This document shows, in pieces, positions 2,660-9,725 of a stretch of DNA of 64,000 bases. The translations under genes were made by a program, and so were the position numbers. Source of the stretch: Methylophaga sp. Its GTDB lineage: Bacteria > Pseudomonadota > Gammaproteobacteria > Nitrosococcales > Methylophagaceae. The stretch covers positions 1-64,000 of the forward strand of contig NZ_JAUSCC010000140.1 of assembly GCF_030651745.1 (NCBI RefSeq), read 5' to 3'. Position 1 is the first letter of the stretch, and each line of letters opens with the position of its first letter. The notes beneath the pieces are model-generated. The model saw only the letters and a program-made list of their open reading frames with translations. It had not been told where the DNA came from and ran no database searches.

Positions 2660-5527
2660 ATGGCGAGCGAAGCAGAAAACTACACCCAACCCTCCTCTGA
2701 AACCGGCTACAAAGTTATTCGTCGTAACGGCAAAGTCACCGAGTTTAATAGCAGCAAAATTGCTGTTGCTTTGACCAAAGCTTTCTTAGCTGTCGAAGGT
2801 CAAGCAGCAAAAGATAGCCGACGTATTCACGAAACGGTTGCCGAACTTACCAGCCAAGTCAGTGAAAATCTGCTGCGTCGGTTAGACGATGGTGGCACCG
2901 TGCATATCGAAGATATTCAGGATCAGGTTGAACTCGCTTTGATGCGTGCTGGTGAATACAAAGTCGCCCGCTCGTATGTGGTTTACCGTGAACAACAATC
3001 ACAAAAACGTGCTGAAGAAGAACGCAAGCACCCGCAACCTGCCAACGAATCTACACTGCACGTTACGTTAGCTGATGGCACTCGCCAGCCATTAGATATC
3101 GAACGTCTGCGCAACCTGATTGATGAAGCCTGTGAAGGCCTTGCTCAAGTGGATAACGCTGCCATCCTGCGTGATACCCAACGTAATATCTTTGATGGTG
3201 TGTCTGAAAAAGACGTCGAAAAAGCGCTGATCATGTCAGCCCGTACGTTTATCGAAAAAGATCCTGCCTACAGCACCCTGGCTGCTCGCCTGCTGATGGA
3301 CAGCATCCGTCGTGAAGCATTGAGTTTTGTTTACAAAACACCTCGCCAAGCCTCACAAGGTGAAATGGCTGATCAATACAAAGACTATTTCAAAACCTAC
3401 GTTCGCACTGCCATTGAAAACGAACTGATCGACTCAGAACTGGGTTTATATGATCTGGAACGCCTGGGTAACGCTTTGAAACCGGAAAACGATTTCAGCT
3501 TTACTTACCTCGGCCTGCAAACGTTGTATGACCGTTATTTCATTCACTTTGACGGCACCCGTTTTGAATTGCCACAAGCCTTTTATATGCGTGTCGCAAT
3601 GGGTCTGGCTATCAACGAAATCGATCGTGAAGCCCGCGCCATTGAGTTCTACAACCTGTTGTCATCTTTCGACTTCATGAGCTCAACTCCAACATTATTT
3701 AATGCCGGTACCTTGCGTCCACAATTATCGTCTTGCTACCTGACAACCGTGCCTGATGATCTGAGCGGTATTTACAGTGCTATGCGTGATAACGCCCTGC
3801 TGTCTAAATATGCCGGTGGTCTGGGTAATGACTGGACCCGTGTGCGTGGCCTGGGTGCTCATATCAAAGGCACCAACGGTAAATCACAAGGTGTTGTACC
3901 GTTCCTGAAAGTCGCTAACGACACTGCTGTTGCGGTTAACCAAGGTGGTAAACGTAAAGGTGCGGTTTGTGCGTATCTTGAAACCTGGCACATCGACGTT
4001 GAAGAATTCCTGGATCTGCGTAAAAACACTGGTGATGATCGTCGTCGTACCCACGATATGAACACTGCCAACTGGATCCCTGATTTGTTCATGAAACGTG
4101 TGGCTGAAGAAGGTCCATGGACATTGTTTTCACCAGAAGAAGTGCCAGATCTGCATGATCTGACCGGTCTGGGTTTTGAAAAAGCTTACGCTGAATACGA
4201 AGCCAAAGCCGCTCGCGGTGAAATCCGTAACTTCAAAACCATGCCTGCCACCGACCTGTGGCGCAAAATGCTCGGCATGTTGTTTGAAACCGGCCACCCT
4301 TGGATCACGTTCAAAGATCCTTGTAACCTGCGTAGCCCGCAACAACATGTTGGTGTCGTTCACAGCTCAAACCTGTGTACCGAAATCACCCTGAACACAT
4401 CTGATCAAGAAATCGCGGTGTGTAACCTCGGTTCGGTCAATATGGTTCAACATATTGATGCCAGCGGCAAACTGGACAAAGAAAAGCTTAACCGCACGGT
4501 AAAAACCGCGATGCGTATGCTGGATAACGTTATCGAATACAACTATTACAGTGTGCCGCAAGCTCGTCATTCCAACCTGCTGCACCGCCCTGTTGGTCTG
4601 GGCATCATGGGCTTCCAGGATGCGTTATATAAACTGCGTATTCCTTACAGCACCGAAGAAGCCGTGAAATTCGCTGATGAATCAATGGAAGCAGTCAGCT
4701 ACTACGCCATCGATGCGTCTTCTGATTTGGCTGCAGAACGTGGCAAATACAAATCTTACGAAGGCAGCTTGTGGAGCAAAGGCATTCTGCCGATTGATTC
4801 CATCAAGATCCTTAAAGAAGCGCGTGGCGAGTATCTGCAACAAGACGAAAGCAAAACCATGGATTGGGATGCGCTGCGTGACAAAGTCAAACGTCAAGGC
4901 ATGCGTAACTCAAACACTATGGCGATTGCCCCGACTGCCACTATCTCGAATATCTGTGGTGTCAGCCAGTCGATTGAACCGACTTACCAAAACCTGTTTG
5001 TTAAATCGAACCTGTCTGGCGAATTCACTGTTATCAACCCGTACATGGTTGAAGATTTGAAAGCACGCGGTTTGTGGGATGATGTCATGATCAATGACCT
5101 CAAATACTATGATGGCAGCCTGCTGTCGATTGACCGTGTTCCAGCTGAACTGAAAGCGTTGTACACCACCGCTTTTGAAATGGATGCACGCTGGTTGATT
5201 GAAGCTGCATCACGTCGTCAAAAATGGCTGGATCAGGCTCAAAGCTTAAACCTGTACATGGCTGAACCATCCGGTAAGAAAATGGACAATCTGTACAAAC
5301 TGGCGTGGGTACGTGGTCTGAAAACTACTTATTACCTGCGTTCAATGGGCGCAACCGGTGCCGAGAAAACCAGCACCGCGCCGACTACTGCAACAACAGC
5401 TAAACCGTCTGCACCACCTGTGTTAAAGCCGGTTGCCAAACAAGAAGATGACTTTATTTCAGGTGAAGGTATGGACGCACCGAAAGCCTGTTCAATCTTG
5501 GAACCAGACTGCGAGGCTTGCCAATAA
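2660..5527 (+). CDS. nrdA: Class Ia ribonucleotide reductase, large (alpha) subunit
   Basis: A 955-residue catalytic subunit that reduces ribonucleoside diphosphates. The N-terminus carries two ATP-cone domains in tandem (about residues 18-110 and 130-225), as in Pseudomonas NrdA, which is longer than E. coli NrdA (761 residues). Active-site cysteines appear in SSCYLT, in NLCTEI (thiyl-radical Cys with the partner Glu) and in VCNLGSVN. The C-terminal shuttle pair is CEAC, two residues from the end. The ATG at 2660 lies just after the NrdR boxes. The stop overlaps the nrdB start by one base. Confidence 0.97.
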   Translation: MASEAENYTQPSSETGYKVIRRNGKVTEFNSSKIAVALTKAFLAVEGQAAKDSRRIHETVAELTSQVSENLLRRLDDGGTVHIEDIQDQVELALMRAGEYKVARSYVVYREQQSQKRAEEERKHPQPANESTLHVTLADGTRQPLDIERLRNLIDEACEGLAQVDNAAILRDTQRNIFDGVSEKDVEKALIMSARTFIEKDPAYSTLAARLLMDSIRREALSFVYKTPRQASQGEMADQYKDYFKTYVRTAIENELIDSELGLYDLERLGNALKPENDFSFTYLGLQTLYDRYFIHFDGTRFELPQAFYMRVAMGLAINEIDREARAIEFYNLLSSFDFMSSTPTLFNAGTLRPQLSSCYLTTVPDDLSGIYSAMRDNALLSKYAGGLGNDWTRVRGLGAHIKGTNGKSQGVVPFLKVANDTAVAVNQGGKRKGAVCAYLETWHIDVEEFLDLRKNTGDDRRRTHDMNTANWIPDLFMKRVAEEGPWTLFSPEEVPDLHDLTGLGFEKAYAEYEAKAARGEIRNFKTMPATDLWRKMLGMLFETGHPWITFKDPCNLRSPQQHVGVVHSSNLCTEITLNTSDQEIAVCNLGSVNMVQHIDASGKLDKEKLNRTVKTAMRMLDNVIEYNYYSVPQARHSNLLHRPVGLGIMGFQDALYKLRIPYSTEEAVKFADESMEAVSYYAIDASSDLAAERGKYKSYEGSLWSKGILPIDSIKILKEARGEYLQQDESKTMDWDALRDKVKRQGMRNSNTMAIAPTATISNICGVSQSIEPTYQNLFVKSNLSGEFTVINPYMVEDLKARGLWDDVMINDLKYYDGSLLSIDRVPAELKALYTTAFEMDARWLIEAASRRQKWLDQAQSLNLYMAEPSGKKMDNLYKLAWVRGLKTTYYLRSMGATGAEKTSTAPTTATTAKPSAPPVLKPVAKQEDDFISGEGMDAPKACSILEPDCEACQ

Positions 5528-6678
5528 TGTTTAACTGGGACGATCCACTTGCCGAAAAACCGGCAACCGATGTTGTTGACAACGCACTGTTGCCGCCGTC
5601 ACAACAAGCCGCCAATGAACTCGACACGCCTGAGCCAACCAAAGCCAGTGTCAGTGAATTGCCGCCATTAAACGCAAAAGCCGTTAATGCTGATGACAAA
5701 CGTGTAGTGAATGGACAAGCTGATATCAATCAGCTTGCCCCGTTCAAATACCCGTGGGCGTGGAACTACTTCTTAAATGCCAACAAAAACCACTGGACGC
5801 CACTTGATATCAACATGGCGCAGGACGTTCACGACTACCGTCATAAACTGACGTTAGAAGAACGTCATGTTTATGAAAACGTACTGTCATACCTGACCAC
5901 CTCCGATATTCTTGCGATGCGTAATATCGGTCTGGCGGTTATGGAAAAAATGACCGCACCGGAACTGCAGATTTACCAAGCCCGTCAGGTTTATGAAGAA
6001 GCGCTGCATACCTGGACCTACCAGCACTGCATCGAAACCATCGGCCTGGACCAAGGTGAAATCTACAACCGCTATCGCGTAGTGCCGGAGATTTACCAAA
6101 AGATCAAACTCGCCAATGACCGTCTTAGTACAGTTATGCGTAGTGATATCGATCTGCGTGATAAAGACGAACTGGAAAACTTCGTCATGTCTTACGCGTT
6201 CTTCGCTGGCATTTTCGAAGGCAGCTGGTTCTACAACGGCTTCTCACCGATCTTTGCATTGCAACGTCGCGGCCTCATGAAAGGTACTGGCGAACAGCTG
6301 CAATACATCATGCGTGATGAAGTCATGCACGCCTCGTTTGGTATTCGTGTGTGCAGACAAATCATCAAAGAAGAAAACGTCAAACTGGATCCAAAGAAAA
6401 TCCAGACCATGTTTGAAGAAGCCGATGCAGCAGAAGCAACCTACGCAGGCTACATTCTGCGTGACCCGATTTTGGGTTACTCAAAAGAAGCCCACCACGG
6501 CCAATTCCGCTACACCGCCAACCGCCGTGCCAAACAACTCGGCTTTGAAGAACCTTTCCCCGGCGCAGAAGCCACCCTGCCCTGGTTGGATGAACAAGCC
6601 AACATGCGGAAGGAGAAAAACTTCTTCGAAACCAAGGTCACCGAATATCAAACCGGTGGCGGTTTGAAATGGGATTGA
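5527..6678 (+). CDS. nrdB: Class Ia ribonucleotide reductase, small (beta) subunit
   Basis: The radical-generating subunit, 383 residues. Iron ligands and radical site are visible: Asp127 in TTSDI, Glu158 and His161 in EEALHTWTY, with Tyr165 at the tyrosyl-radical position, and Glu and His in RDEVMHASFG. I use the ATG at 5527, which overlaps the nrdA stop (TAATG) and has GAGG about ten bases upstream; an in-frame TTG at 5518 lies inside nrdA and is unlikely. The first 65 residues form a variable, proline-rich leader. A strong terminator follows. Confidence 0.96.
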   Translation: MFNWDDPLAEKPATDVVDNALLPPSQQAANELDTPEPTKASVSELPPLNAKAVNADDKRVVNGQADINQLAPFKYPWAWNYFLNANKNHWTPLDINMAQDVHDYRHKLTLEERHVYENVLSYLTTSDILAMRNIGLAVMEKMTAPELQIYQARQVYEEALHTWTYQHCIETIGLDQGEIYNRYRVVPEIYQKIKLANDRLSTVMRSDIDLRDKDELENFVMSYAFFAGIFEGSWFYNGFSPIFALQRRGLMKGTGEQLQYIMRDEVMHASFGIRVCRQIIKEENVKLDPKKIQTMFEEADAAEATYAGYILRDPILGYSKEAHHGQFRYTANRRAKQLGFEEPFPGAEATLPWLDEQANMRKEKNFFETKVTEYQTGGGLKWD

Positions 6679-6716: not shown

Positions 6717-6734
6717 ATTCGCCAAGGATTGCTT

Positions 6735-8402
6735 ATGGATGAATACGCTGTCTCTGTTTTTTGTAGTTACTCTCATAAAGACGAGGAGCTCAAAAATAAG
6801 CTTCTTAATCACTTAGCAACGCTGAAAAGGCAAAAGCTAATTGATGAGTGGAACGATAGAGCAATTGTGCCCGGAAAAGATTGGCAAAGAGAAATTGACG
6901 ATAAAATAAGGACTGCTGATCTAGTACTTTTACTGGTTAGTTCAGACTTTATTGGTTCAAATTATTGTTATGAAAAAGAATTATCCATAGCCTTAGAAAG
7001 ACATGATTCAAATCTATCTGTGGTTCTGCCAATAATATTAAGACCTTGTGATTGGCATGAAACAACCTTTGCGAAGATTCAGGGTCTTCCGACAGATGGC
7101 CTCCCAATAACAAAATGGAACAACGAGGATGAAGCTTGCCTTAATGTTATTGAAGGAATAAAGAAAACCATTGCAGAAATAAAAAAATTCAAAAAAAGAG
7201 TTGGAGAAGGAGCTGGCTTACTGAGCATAAGGGATGTTCTATCAAGAGAAATTGATCGTATTGATACAGTTTTTGAAAAAGTAGACTCGGAAAAGTGTAG
7301 CGGCCTATCAACAGGGATTTCGGATCTAGATTATGTTATTGACGGCTTACACCCCGCAGAGTTAATCGTATTGGCATCTAGGCCTGCAATGGGTAAAACT
7401 GCCCTTTCTCTGAATTTTGCTGCGAATATAGCTATTCATGAAAAGGAAGCCGTAGCTTATTTTTCGATGAACACACCTGTAGAACATACGACAAGGAGAT
7501 TGATGTCTCTAGTTGGAAGTATTGATAGTAATGATCTACTTAGAGGAAATCTAAAGGATGATGACTGGCCTAGATTGACATCAGTAATTGCACTACTTAA
7601 TGAAGCTCCACTATTTATAGATGAAAGCATATTATCCTCTGTAGATGAGCTTCGTCTTAAGTTGATAAATTTCAAGCAAAAGCACAACCTCAAAGCGGTA
7701 ATAATTGATTCATTACAAGACTTGGCCTACCGAGAAAAATCTCTGAACACGGACCTTTCATATTCTGAGTATGCACATAAGCTTAAGCACCTAGCTATGG
7801 AGGTGCAATTGCCAATAATTTTAACTGTATCTCTACCTAGATCAGTAGAAAACAGACCAAATAAGCGTCCTCACTTGAATGACCTTTCCGAATTCGAAAA
7901 CCTAACAAACTGTGCTGACATAATTGGTTTTATATACAGAGGAGAAGTCTACGAAGATTATGATTTTATGGATAATGCTAATGCAGAAATCATCATAGCC
8001 AAAAATAACAATGGTCATATTGGAACTATCCGACTTTTATATCAGACAAGGTACTCAAGATTTTCAGATCTCATAAAATCTGAAACTTCAGATGTAGAAG
8101 GCATGAAAATAGATTTAAATAACCCTGAGGAATTCAATAAAAATAATCTTGCCAGACTTTTAGCTAGTAAGGATGACTCTCAACATCGGCAACTAAGAGT
8201 TACAAAATCCGGAGAGTTATATCTATCCGATGAAGTTGGTAACCTAAATACAAATGATCTGGCTTTTAGAATCGAAACACTATGTGCAGGGAATGGATAC
8301 GTAGGTGAAATTGCAGCTAAAGACGATGAGTGGATTGAGAGAGTGTACACACTCATTTCAGAGAATTGGCCAAACCCTAAAAATAGTCATATCGAAATGT
8401 AA
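6735..8402 (+). CDS. TIR domain fused to a DnaB-like helicase motor (putative defence protein)
   Basis: A 555-residue two-domain protein. Residues 4-150 form a bacterial TIR domain (VFCSYSHKDEEL, then SSDFIGSNYCYEKEL, then PIILRPCDW); Glu82 is the likely NADase catalytic residue. Residues 185-450 resemble the C-terminal RecA-fold domain of the replicative helicase DnaB: STGISDLDYVIDGL, Walker A ASRPAMGKT (Lys221), Walker B AVIIDS (Asp325), LNDLSEFENLTNCADII and AKNNNGHIG. The DnaB N-terminal domain that binds primase is absent; TIR takes its place. The KxRNG motif of DnaB reads KNNNG. About 100 unassigned residues follow. The ATG at 6735 has AAGGA six bases upstream. The gene is visibly AT-rich against nrdAB, suggesting transfer. 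An anti-phage role is inference from the TIR family and the context. Confidence 0.85.
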   Translation: MDEYAVSVFCSYSHKDEELKNKLLNHLATLKRQKLIDEWNDRAIVPGKDWQREIDDKIRTADLVLLLVSSDFIGSNYCYEKELSIALERHDSNLSVVLPIILRPCDWHETTFAKIQGLPTDGLPITKWNNEDEACLNVIEGIKKTIAEIKKFKKRVGEGAGLLSIRDVLSREIDRIDTVFEKVDSEKCSGLSTGISDLDYVIDGLHPAELIVLASRPAMGKTALSLNFAANIAIHEKEAVAYFSMNTPVEHTTRRLMSLVGSIDSNDLLRGNLKDDDWPRLTSVIALLNEAPLFIDESILSSVDELRLKLINFKQKHNLKAVIIDSLQDLAYREKSLNTDLSYSEYAHKLKHLAMEVQLPIILTVSLPRSVENRPNKRPHLNDLSEFENLTNCADIIGFIYRGEVYEDYDFMDNANAEIIIAKNNNGHIGTIRLLYQTRYSRFSDLIKSETSDVEGMKIDLNNPEEFNKNNLARLLASKDDSQHRQLRVTKSGELYLSDEVGNLNTNDLAFRIETLCAGNGYVGEIAAKDDEWIERVYTLISENWPNPKNSHIEM

Positions 8403-8423
8403 GGCTTCACTATATGAAACTAA

Positions 8424-8519
8424 ATCAAACAGTAATCCCGTAAGTTGGGTTGAAGAATGAAACCCAACATTCGCCATTCGTTAAGTTTCGAGCAAGTGAA
8501 TTATTACTGTTCGTTTGAT
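8424..8519. repeat. REPIN-like / small inverted-repeat element, copy A
   Basis: An element of about 96 bp bounded by an inverted repeat (AACAGTAAT at 8428-8436 and ATTACTGTT at 8503-8511, with further partial pairing outside). Inside is a perfect hairpin, GTTGGGTT (8444-8451) with AACCCAAC (8461-8468), around the loop GAAGAATGA. Its internal sequence resembles copy B at 9103-9186. The 136-base gap 8403-8538 consists almost entirely of this element. REP-like elements of this type are moved by RAYT transposases, one of which lies nearby. Confidence 0.65.
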
Positions 8520-8538
8520 ATTGGACTATTAATCAATT

Positions 8539-9102
8539 ATGGATAATTTTTTAACAATCATTGTGGCGATTGCTGGGATATTCGGCATTTTCAAAATAGT
8601 TAATGAAATCACGTTATCACGAACCTCAAAACACAGAGATGACTATGAATTCACTAAAAACTATTTAGATGATTTAAATAATCCAAATACACATAGATTT
8701 ATTATTGAGAAAGGATTTCGAGCACTTACTAATAATAATTATTCTGTTGAAGAGATAAAGTATCTTTTATCCCAGGATGAACCTATGGAGCTAATTTACC
8801 TTCGGGCATCTAGTAAAAAAATCGTATATTTTGACTTAGAAACACAATTGTACATTTGGAATGGTATTTATAAGAGATCGTGGTTTAGAAAAATAATATC
8901 TGAACTTTTAGTTATGACTTATACAGTCACAGCATTTTTAGCAGTAATGCTTTTTCTATTAAACCATGACACCAATCTGCTGGATTTAAAATTTTTTATT
9001 ATTTCGATATCATTAGGATTTTTTGCAGTTTTGGCCCTTATAAAGCGATCTGATTTCAACGACGCAGTAGATTTTATGAATATGTTAGAGAATGAGAAAT
9101 AG
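8539..9102 (+). CDS. Membrane protein of unknown function, possible partner of TIR-DnaB
   Basis: A 187-residue protein with one predicted membrane helix at the N-terminus (about 3-22) and a hairpin of two near the C-terminus (about 117-140 and 148-167). Between them is a charged, asparagine-rich cytoplasmic region of about 95 residues. I recognise no family. It is AT-rich like the TIR-DnaB gene, on the same strand, and separated from it only by a repeat element. No strong ribosome-binding site is seen before the ATG. Small membrane proteins often accompany TIR or ATPase defence genes, but a functional link here is inference. Confidence 0.65.
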   Translation: MDNFLTIIVAIAGIFGIFKIVNEITLSRTSKHRDDYEFTKNYLDDLNNPNTHRFIIEKGFRALTNNNYSVEEIKYLLSQDEPMELIYLRASSKKIVYFDLETQLYIWNGIYKRSWFRKIISELLVMTYTVTAFLAVMLFLLNHDTNLLDLKFFIISISLGFFAVLALIKRSDFNDAVDFMNMLENEK

Positions 9103-9186
9103 TAGGTAAGATTGAAGAATAAAGCCTAACCCTTTATTAATGAAATAACATTCTGGATTTGTTGGGTTTCGCAAGCTCTACCCTAC
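9103..9186. repeat. REPIN-like element, copy B
   Basis: It begins GTAGGTAAGATTGAAGAAT and ends TTTCGCAAGCTCTACCCTAC, giving imperfect terminal inverted repeats of about 10 bp. It shares the TTGAAGAAT...GTTGGGTTTCG layout with copy A at 8424-8519. It ends 36 bases before the RAYT pseudogene at 9223, the usual arrangement of REP sequences flanking their transposase. Confidence 0.6.
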
Positions 9187-9222
9187 ATTTATTTATTTTT
9201 ATAATCACATGGATGGTGATTG

Positions 9223-9725
9223 ATGCAATATCGACGGACTTTTGTTGCCGGTGGGTCTTATTTCTTCACGGTCAATCTGCTGGAACGAAATAAATCATGC
9301 TGACTGCTCATATCGATCTTTTAAAAACCGCATTTCGCAAAGTTAAACTCGCCCACCCTTTTGATATTGATGCGATCGTAGTGTTGCCTGATCATCTTCA
9401 TACTATCTGGACTTTACCTGTAAATGATGCGGATTTTGCTACGCGCTGGCGATTGATTAAATCGAATTTTTCTCGCGGTCTTCCCTCTACCGAACGAATC
9501 AATAACTCACGAAAACAAAAATCTGAACGCGGCATCTGGCAACGCCGGTATTGGGAACATTTAATCCGTGATGATTTGGATTATCAAAGACATGTTGATT
9601 ACATTCATTTCAATCCGGTGAAACATGGTTATGTCGATAAGGCGGTTGATTGGCCTTATTCCAGCATTCATAGCTTTATTAAGAAACACATTATTTCAGG
9701 CGATGGGGATATGATAAAACTCTGA
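9223..9725 (+). pseudogene. REP-associated tyrosine transposase (RAYT, Y1/HUH family), frameshifted
   Basis: The normal RAYT N-terminus is encoded from the ATG at 9223 (MQYRRTFVAGGSYFF...) but meets a stop near 9299. The remainder is open in another frame from 9297 to 9725. One missing base near 9296-9299 would restore the expected sequence through NKS-LLTAHI. Downstream, the HUH motif (DHLHTIW) and the catalytic region (DYQRHVDYIHFNPVKHGYV) are intact. Translation from the internal ATG at 9297 would give a 142-residue protein without the first beta strand, probably inactive. It probably mobilised the adjacent REPIN elements. Sequencing error is an alternative. Confidence 0.85.

Follow-up and report, generated by a model that had tools for sequence, protein, structure and literature searches.

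TIR effectors are paired with many kinds of sensor module, and a gene on a contig of Methylophaga sp. (within 64,000 nucleotides of DNA that were analysed as a whole, hereafter the window) raises the question of what such an effector does when the remainder of the protein derives from the helicase DnaB. A first-pass annotation had put the product forward as a candidate defence protein in which a helicase motor might sense stalled forks or single-stranded DNA (ssDNA). The account favoured here, to which we give a little better than an even chance, is that of an anti-phage TIR-effector protein on a disarmed DnaB scaffold. The features of the locus are:

5524..6678, + strand, nrdB, upstream edge of a variable slot
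6735..8402, + strand, TIR-DnaB fusion gene, 555 aa plus stop
6735..7124, + strand, TIR domain, residues 1–130 (Pfam TIR_2 at 8–116)
6978–6980, + strand, codon of Glu82, catalytic-type, in the TIR domain
7125..7289, + strand, helical linker, residues 131–185, including the DnaB linker helix
7302..8069, + strand, DnaB C-terminal (RecA-type) domain, residues 190–445, catalytically degenerate
8103..8399, + strand, C-terminal add-on, residues 457–555, of a small unnamed family
8539..9102, + strand, predicted membrane protein of 187 aa and unknown family, other slot cargo
9297..9725, + strand, REP-associated tyrosine transposase (RAYT; NCBIfam NF047646, E 1.2e-51), the frame beginning inside the model

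The reading frame of the fusion starts with the ATG at 6735, with AAGGA at 6724–6728; an alternative TTG start at 6729 would give a product of 557 aa. From its N terminus, the protein joins a TIR domain to the linker helix of DnaB and then to the entire C-terminal motor domain of that helicase, the DnaB_C profile being complete (Pfam; E 1.5e-67, residues 190–445, profile positions 1–255 of 255). The DnaB N-terminal domain (PF00772) is absent at E ≤ 0.1 in the Pfam scan, and the TIR domain occupies its place. DnaB sequences from the PDB align from residue 131–165 onward, linker helix included (a predicted helix at 165–181, with E. coli DnaB 183–194 mapping to 166–177), and the match to DnaB models of NCBIfam starts near residue 130 but stays far under their cut-offs (the TIGR00665 equivalog gives 250.8 bits against a cut-off of 385.25). 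A predicted model of the full-length protein (pLDDT 75.6, pTM 0.54) returns DnaB-type helicases as all 50 matches listed; it is confident within the domains but not, as the pTM indicates, in their layout, and is poor in the last hundred residues.

The TIR assignment is equally firm at the level of the profile (TIR_2, E 5.6e-16; 59.6 bits against a curated cut-off of 28), and a model of residues 1–164 (pLDDT 80.7) matches TIR structures, among them Cat1 (E 6.5e-5) and plant, Toll and AbTir TIRs, at TM-scores of about 0.5–0.64 in the top rows. Glu82, which we take to be the catalytic Glu, lies within a C-x-x-x-E motif, aligns with a Glu of Cat1 and is conserved in all 34 family members readable at this position (the remaining one, P0133, has a gap). 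Across the family, conservation is highest in the TIR domain, where column entropy averages 1.34 (motor, 2.01). The domain is matched by the PADLOC ThsB model PDLC00420 (E 1.9e-52), and its subfamily occurs with many other modules among the 120 matches listed when proteins were searched with the TIR part. It is probably an NAD+ hydrolase; TIR domains are activated by being brought together. The domain assignments of the first-pass annotation (an N-terminal TIR with Glu82, a DnaB-type RecA domain with Walker A and B, and no DnaB N-terminal domain) are therefore upheld, and the predicted structure contains the TIR fold on which that annotation had made its case depend.

The DnaB-derived part has a different character. 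Walker A K221 and Walker B D325 are intact in the window protein; N246 replaces the Glu, S366 the motif-3 Gln, S385 the ssDNA-loop Arg and N425 the arginine finger. These positions were compared with 95 ordinary DnaBs, which are the best-scoring non-fusion rows of the profile search and not a random sample; the Walker A Lys, the Glu (E. coli 262, after the motif FS-x-E), Gln 384, Arg 403 and Arg 442 are invariant in all 95. We take E. coli DnaB residue 262 to be the catalytic Glu, 442 the arginine finger and 403 an ssDNA contact. Among the fusions, the catalytic Glu is present in 4 of 35 rows, the motif-3 Gln in 4 of 33, the arginine finger in 7 of 33 and the ssDNA-loop Arg in 1 of 33 (P0126), against 95 of 95 ordinary DnaBs in every case. 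Rows P0033, P0124, P0126 and P0132 retain both the catalytic Glu and the arginine finger. The Walker A Lys persists in 28 of 35 fusion rows (95 of 95 ordinary DnaBs) and the Walker B Asp in 33 of 34, and ATP binding is probably retained in most family members.

The linker helix and C-terminal domain are the ring-forming part of DnaB, and we infer that the fusion protein also forms a ring, although its linker helix is no better conserved than the rest of the domain (canonical residue in 0.33 of rows, against 0.37). Because the residues for hydrolysis and ssDNA contact have been lost, the DnaB part is more likely a holder or bait than a motor; judged from its residues, it is probably a ring-forming or bait module. 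DnaB belongs to a class of enzymes with a catalytic glutamate, and an arginine finger is named in the H. pylori enzyme (PMC8421360). The replacement of the catalytic Glu, arginine finger, motif-3 Gln and ssDNA-loop Arg, which the first-pass annotation had missed, speaks against its proposal of a working helicase that senses forks or ssDNA, and the helicase as motor was rejected as the leading reading.

TIR-DnaB fusions form a real but rare and patchy family of at least 35 distinct sequences. Two protein searches, the first with the TIR part and the second with a profile, together yielded at least 27 other database proteins with both domains (at least 13, and at least 14 new). When 84,980 species genomes were scanned, the best 80 of 271 confirmed single-motif matches included ten fusion loci (L001–L010); the DnaB part is present in only those ten of 86 loci, plus the window (hmmsearch). 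With the window included, the set comprised 38 rows, 35 without copies and 31 clusters at 90% identity, and a single domain order runs across the 35 distinct sequences. Named hosts in the genome scan include Methylophaga, Marinobacter, Shewanella, Massilia, Caballeronia and Cellvibrio; the fusion also occurs in metagenome-assembled genomes of Burkholderiales, Oxalobacteraceae and Geobacter (genome scan) and in Pseudoalteromonas (TIR-part search). Of 57 genomes from the family to which the window belongs, 2 contain it, and order-wide draws of 399, 394 and 390 genomes matched only in the three starting genomes and in G388, which is probably the same genome as L005 (its 582-residue frame has the length of L005). 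A close relative is L001 (Methylophaga UBA2689), with 416 of 448 positions identical to the window fusion. The nrdB of the window likewise resembles Methylophaga, sharing 99% identity with the gene of a genome from the same genus as L001.

The TIR part had zero matches among 50,697 phage records, and two IMG/VR scans gave no fusion, one of them yielding six TIR-only loci (hmmsearch); a phage origin was rejected. Among plasmids, 1245 records match, none covering 80% of the query, and the 30 matches listed are DnaB only. All nine genomes searched encode at least one DnaB apart from the fusion, which in G001 is split into two pieces lying at contig ends; a role as a core replication gene was rejected on this ground and on the variability of the slot described below. 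The literature searched as full text, with subscription papers and preprints outside its coverage, contains no description of a TIR-DnaB protein, in agreement with the earlier remark that no characterised system is known to have this architecture; the variant is new as far as searched, and an NAD-linked effector joined to a sensor or ring is of a known kind.

The motor-domain tree (computed without L098 and L105, with 31 ordinary DnaBs thinned from the 95) places 29 of 31 fusion rows in one group beside proteobacterial DnaB, at a support of 91/86, which is below star level. Left out of the tree were P0012, P0014 and P0130 (identical to or contained in loci), the partial P0013 and P0131, and the near-copies P0002 (447 of 447 positions) and P0004 (446 of 447). 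The earliest branches within the group are P0126 and P0124, both of which retain the catalytic Glu and the finger; the other 27 rows form a group of their own (support 100/99) in which every row is without the catalytic Glu. The simplest reading of these sequences is that a working helicase would have been captured, its hydrolysis then lost once, and the product then spread. P0033 and P0132, both on long branches, fall apart from the other fusions and may represent a second capture; a single clade of all fusions is not rejected (AU p 0.184), and a TIR tree made by a quick method needs two changes. Between the window and L001, dN/dS is 0.067 for the TIR, 0.079 for the linker and 0.099 for the motor; purifying selection thus acts on all three alike, and the disarmed motor is therefore still needed. 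A pseudogene reading was rejected on these values.

The gene lies directly downstream of nrdAB. In relatives within Methylophaga, what follows nrdB on its 3′ side varies: the slot is a hot spot for defence genes, with cargo that differs from genome to genome (15 loci: L131–L143, L145, and L146). PADLOC was run on 12 proteins from 7 of the 15 loci read, the 7 having been picked by eye, and gave matches in 6 of the 7: CBASS genes at three loci (L141, L142, and L145), type I restriction at L139, and weak matches to Avs1b in L132 and DrmB in L146. The one protein tested from L138 had no PADLOC match and by Pfam is a member of a Tn7-like set (TnsA, TniB, TniQ). Slot cargo in relatives also includes STAND and Tn7-like elements; genes of the latter lie near nrdB at L138 2692–8869, L135 2126–4812 and L145 3782–4438, all three with a TnsA profile, and L138 has TniB and TniQ and a TnsA gene that starts about 110 bases past nrdB. 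The end of nrdB may thus be an insertion site. The membrane protein at 8539–9102 has a partial relative, 31% identical, at L143 8227–8421, in the same slot of another genome.

Two statements of the first-pass annotation about this setting stand in part. The position in an island beside nrdAB is borne out, but the repeats around the fusion gene have little length or strength; two 29-nt copies, at 8440 and 9102 and 76% alike, are consistent with REP elements belonging to the RAYT. A hairpin seen by eye between nrdB and the fusion gene is absent from the output of a terminator scan and is given no weight here. The gene is indeed AT-rich (GC 0.32–0.38 at 7–9 kb, against 0.42–0.49 at 1–7 kb and 10–15 kb), but its low GC alone is weak evidence because the window has other AT-rich stretches (15–17 kb and 45–47 kb, GC 0.36–0.38).

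Of the ten fusion loci in other genomes, eight do not adjoin nrdAB; L002 carries the fusion in the same nrdB slot as the window, and the L001 contig breaks off on the 5′ side of the gene. The core replication operons that the first-pass annotation had named as counter-evidence thus do not appear. Among 28 neighbours scanned at the ten loci, strong PADLOC matches were found at 4 of 10, namely three ThsB-type TIR genes (L010), a retron II-A (L007), DRT5 with a kinase (L008) and DarG (L009); the scanned neighbours at the other 6 (L001–L006) include no strong match, that of L001 being only of a NERD domain to PglW (2.8e-10). The defence context that had been proposed is supported by these four loci and by the matches in the nrdB slot of relatives. 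In L010 (Cellvibrio UBA7671) the three ThsB-type genes (7205–9377) are consecutive and upstream of the fusion. Neighbours of an ADP-ribose-removing type occur at 2 of 10 loci, as an ADP-ribosylglycohydrolase (L002 4194–5132) and a DarG macrodomain (L009 4689–5138), and may be linked to the product of the TIR enzyme.

The last hundred residues of the window protein are treated here as recent cargo outside the core design. In L001, residues 457–555 correspond to a separate 100-aa gene (1813–2115) just 3′ of a 448-aa fusion, a point absent from the first-pass annotation. The tails of window and L001 diverge far beyond the fusions (dS about 3.5 against 0.41), and the tail therefore has its own history, probably acquired by recombination. 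Searched alone, the add-on has no Pfam family and no PHROG, and its best PDB match has an E of 0.0072; its relatives comprise 11 clusters in the protein database, one phage record (Dolichospermum phage) and three IMG/VR contigs. A search of 29 genomes gave no match to it in 28 of them, and it is in no other fusion row of the collected family. This family of about 100 residues, with the motif ASKDDS...RQLRVT, is cargo moving in bacteria and phages (window 8103–8399; L001 1813–2115; L151–L154), and in L153 and L154 the gene lies among apparent P2-type tail genes, as judged by eye. A second kind of add-on, a C-terminal DUF3775, is found in the 582-aa fusion of L005 (707–2455).

In the mechanism that we propose for the disarmed scaffold, the TIR domain, which stands in place of the N-terminal collar of DnaB, is carried by the linker helix and C-terminal domain, and the DnaB-like part would assemble into a full or partial ring, keeping several TIR domains in an inactive arrangement. 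Infection would alter this ring, most likely because a DnaB-binding phage replication factor engages it, or because another DnaB-type helicase mixes in; the TIR domains would then pair, NAD+ would be destroyed and the infected cell would stop. NADase activity, abortive infection and the trigger are inferred, and a phage factor that binds DnaB is our leading guess for the trigger.

The readings that compete with or sharpen this proposal differ mainly in what the DnaB part is for. Phage proteins that bind DnaB have lambda P as their type case, and one specific form of the favoured explanation, a form that we think less likely than not, is an integrated decoy: the disarmed DnaB part would mimic the host helicase, and phage loaders or inhibitors bound to it would switch on the TIR. 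The positions within 10 Å of lambda P in E. coli DnaB were taken from a figure legend of PMC6391071, and at the positions that this legend gives, the canonical residue is retained more than elsewhere once DnaB's own variability is corrected for (difference 0.147), a value reached by 1 of 272 circular shifts, which constitute no formal probability. When columns of canonical entropy under 0.3, 0.6, and 1.0 were removed, 0 of 211, 3 of 183, and 6 of 138 shifts were as high. The lambda P face thus appears to be kept while active-site and DNA-loop residues are lost, as a decoy would predict, but the uncorrected values lie close together (0.42 against 0.35) and the linker helix inside the footprint is not better kept. 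Ring assembly, moreover, predicts the same pattern, since lambda P covers part of the interface between DnaB subunits. Rather unlikely, in our estimate, is a fusion that co-assembles with active host or phage DnaB-type subunits and poisons or monitors the ring; its linker helix and motor are homologous to DnaB, most members have Walker A and B, and the rim is retained, but a motor only about 33–46% identical to DnaB makes mixed rings uncertain.

Slightly less probable again is a Thoeris-like arrangement in which the TIR domain would synthesise a cyclic nucleotide that signals to a separate effector. The ThsB model match and the three ThsB-type genes of L010 speak for it; against it, no ThsA was detected among the 28 neighbours scanned at the ten fusion loci of relatives or in the window, where the scan covered the ORFs at 8539–9102 and 9297–9725, and the same TIR subfamily is joined to many modules. 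That the protein is after all a working helicase-type motor sensing ssDNA or stalled forks is improbable, with the catalytic Glu missing from the window protein and 30 other rows of 35 and the ssDNA-loop Arg confined to P0126. K221, D325 and the four rows with Glu and finger count in its favour, and some ATP-driven action is possible, since the Walker A Lys and Walker B Asp persist in most members and the catalytic Glu in four. A decaying gene or functionless chance fusion, to which the degenerate motor and the recently joined C-terminal part might point, is very improbable given dN/dS of 0.07–0.10 over TIR, linker and motor and one domain order in 35 distinct sequences.

The disarmed-scaffold reading also sets the protein among known systems. 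With TIR NADases and effectors (ThsB class, Cat1, AbTir) it has in common the TIR fold and conserved Glu; it differs from them by the attached DnaB motor, and among the 120 rows listed in the TIR search none lacking PF03796 shares its layout. With DnaB it shares the linker helix and full C-terminal domain, but it lacks the N-terminal domain and has the four motor residues replaced. In TIR-NB-ARC/TPR, TIR-NACHT and other TIR-sensor proteins (including L011) the same TIR subfamily stands N-terminal to a P-loop NTPase or repeat module, but their P-loop part is of STAND type, whereas that of the fusion is DnaB-derived. HerA is ring-shaped. The nearest working analogue is Nezha (SIR2-HerA), in which, according to PMC11559045, an effector that degrades NAD+ acts against phages together with a helicase partner of the RecA/FtsK type; unlike the fusion, it consists of two proteins, with SIR2 rather than TIR and HerA rather than DnaB.

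A core replication enzyme that was captured, disarmed and kept as the sensor module of a TIR effector would be new, and intermediate stages (P0126, P0124) are still preserved. The decoy form of this account would be a bacterial counterpart of integrated-decoy immune receptors, in which a copy of the host's helicase, without catalysis or DNA binding, would serve as bait for phage proteins that capture or inhibit DnaB, and their binding would trigger a TIR NADase. Were the bait reading true, bacteria would be protecting the replication fork by means of a copy of what is attacked, and the family would offer a direct route to phage proteins that attack DnaB; even if the motor domain is only a scaffold, it would be an unusual case in which a hexameric helicase has become a platform for signalling.
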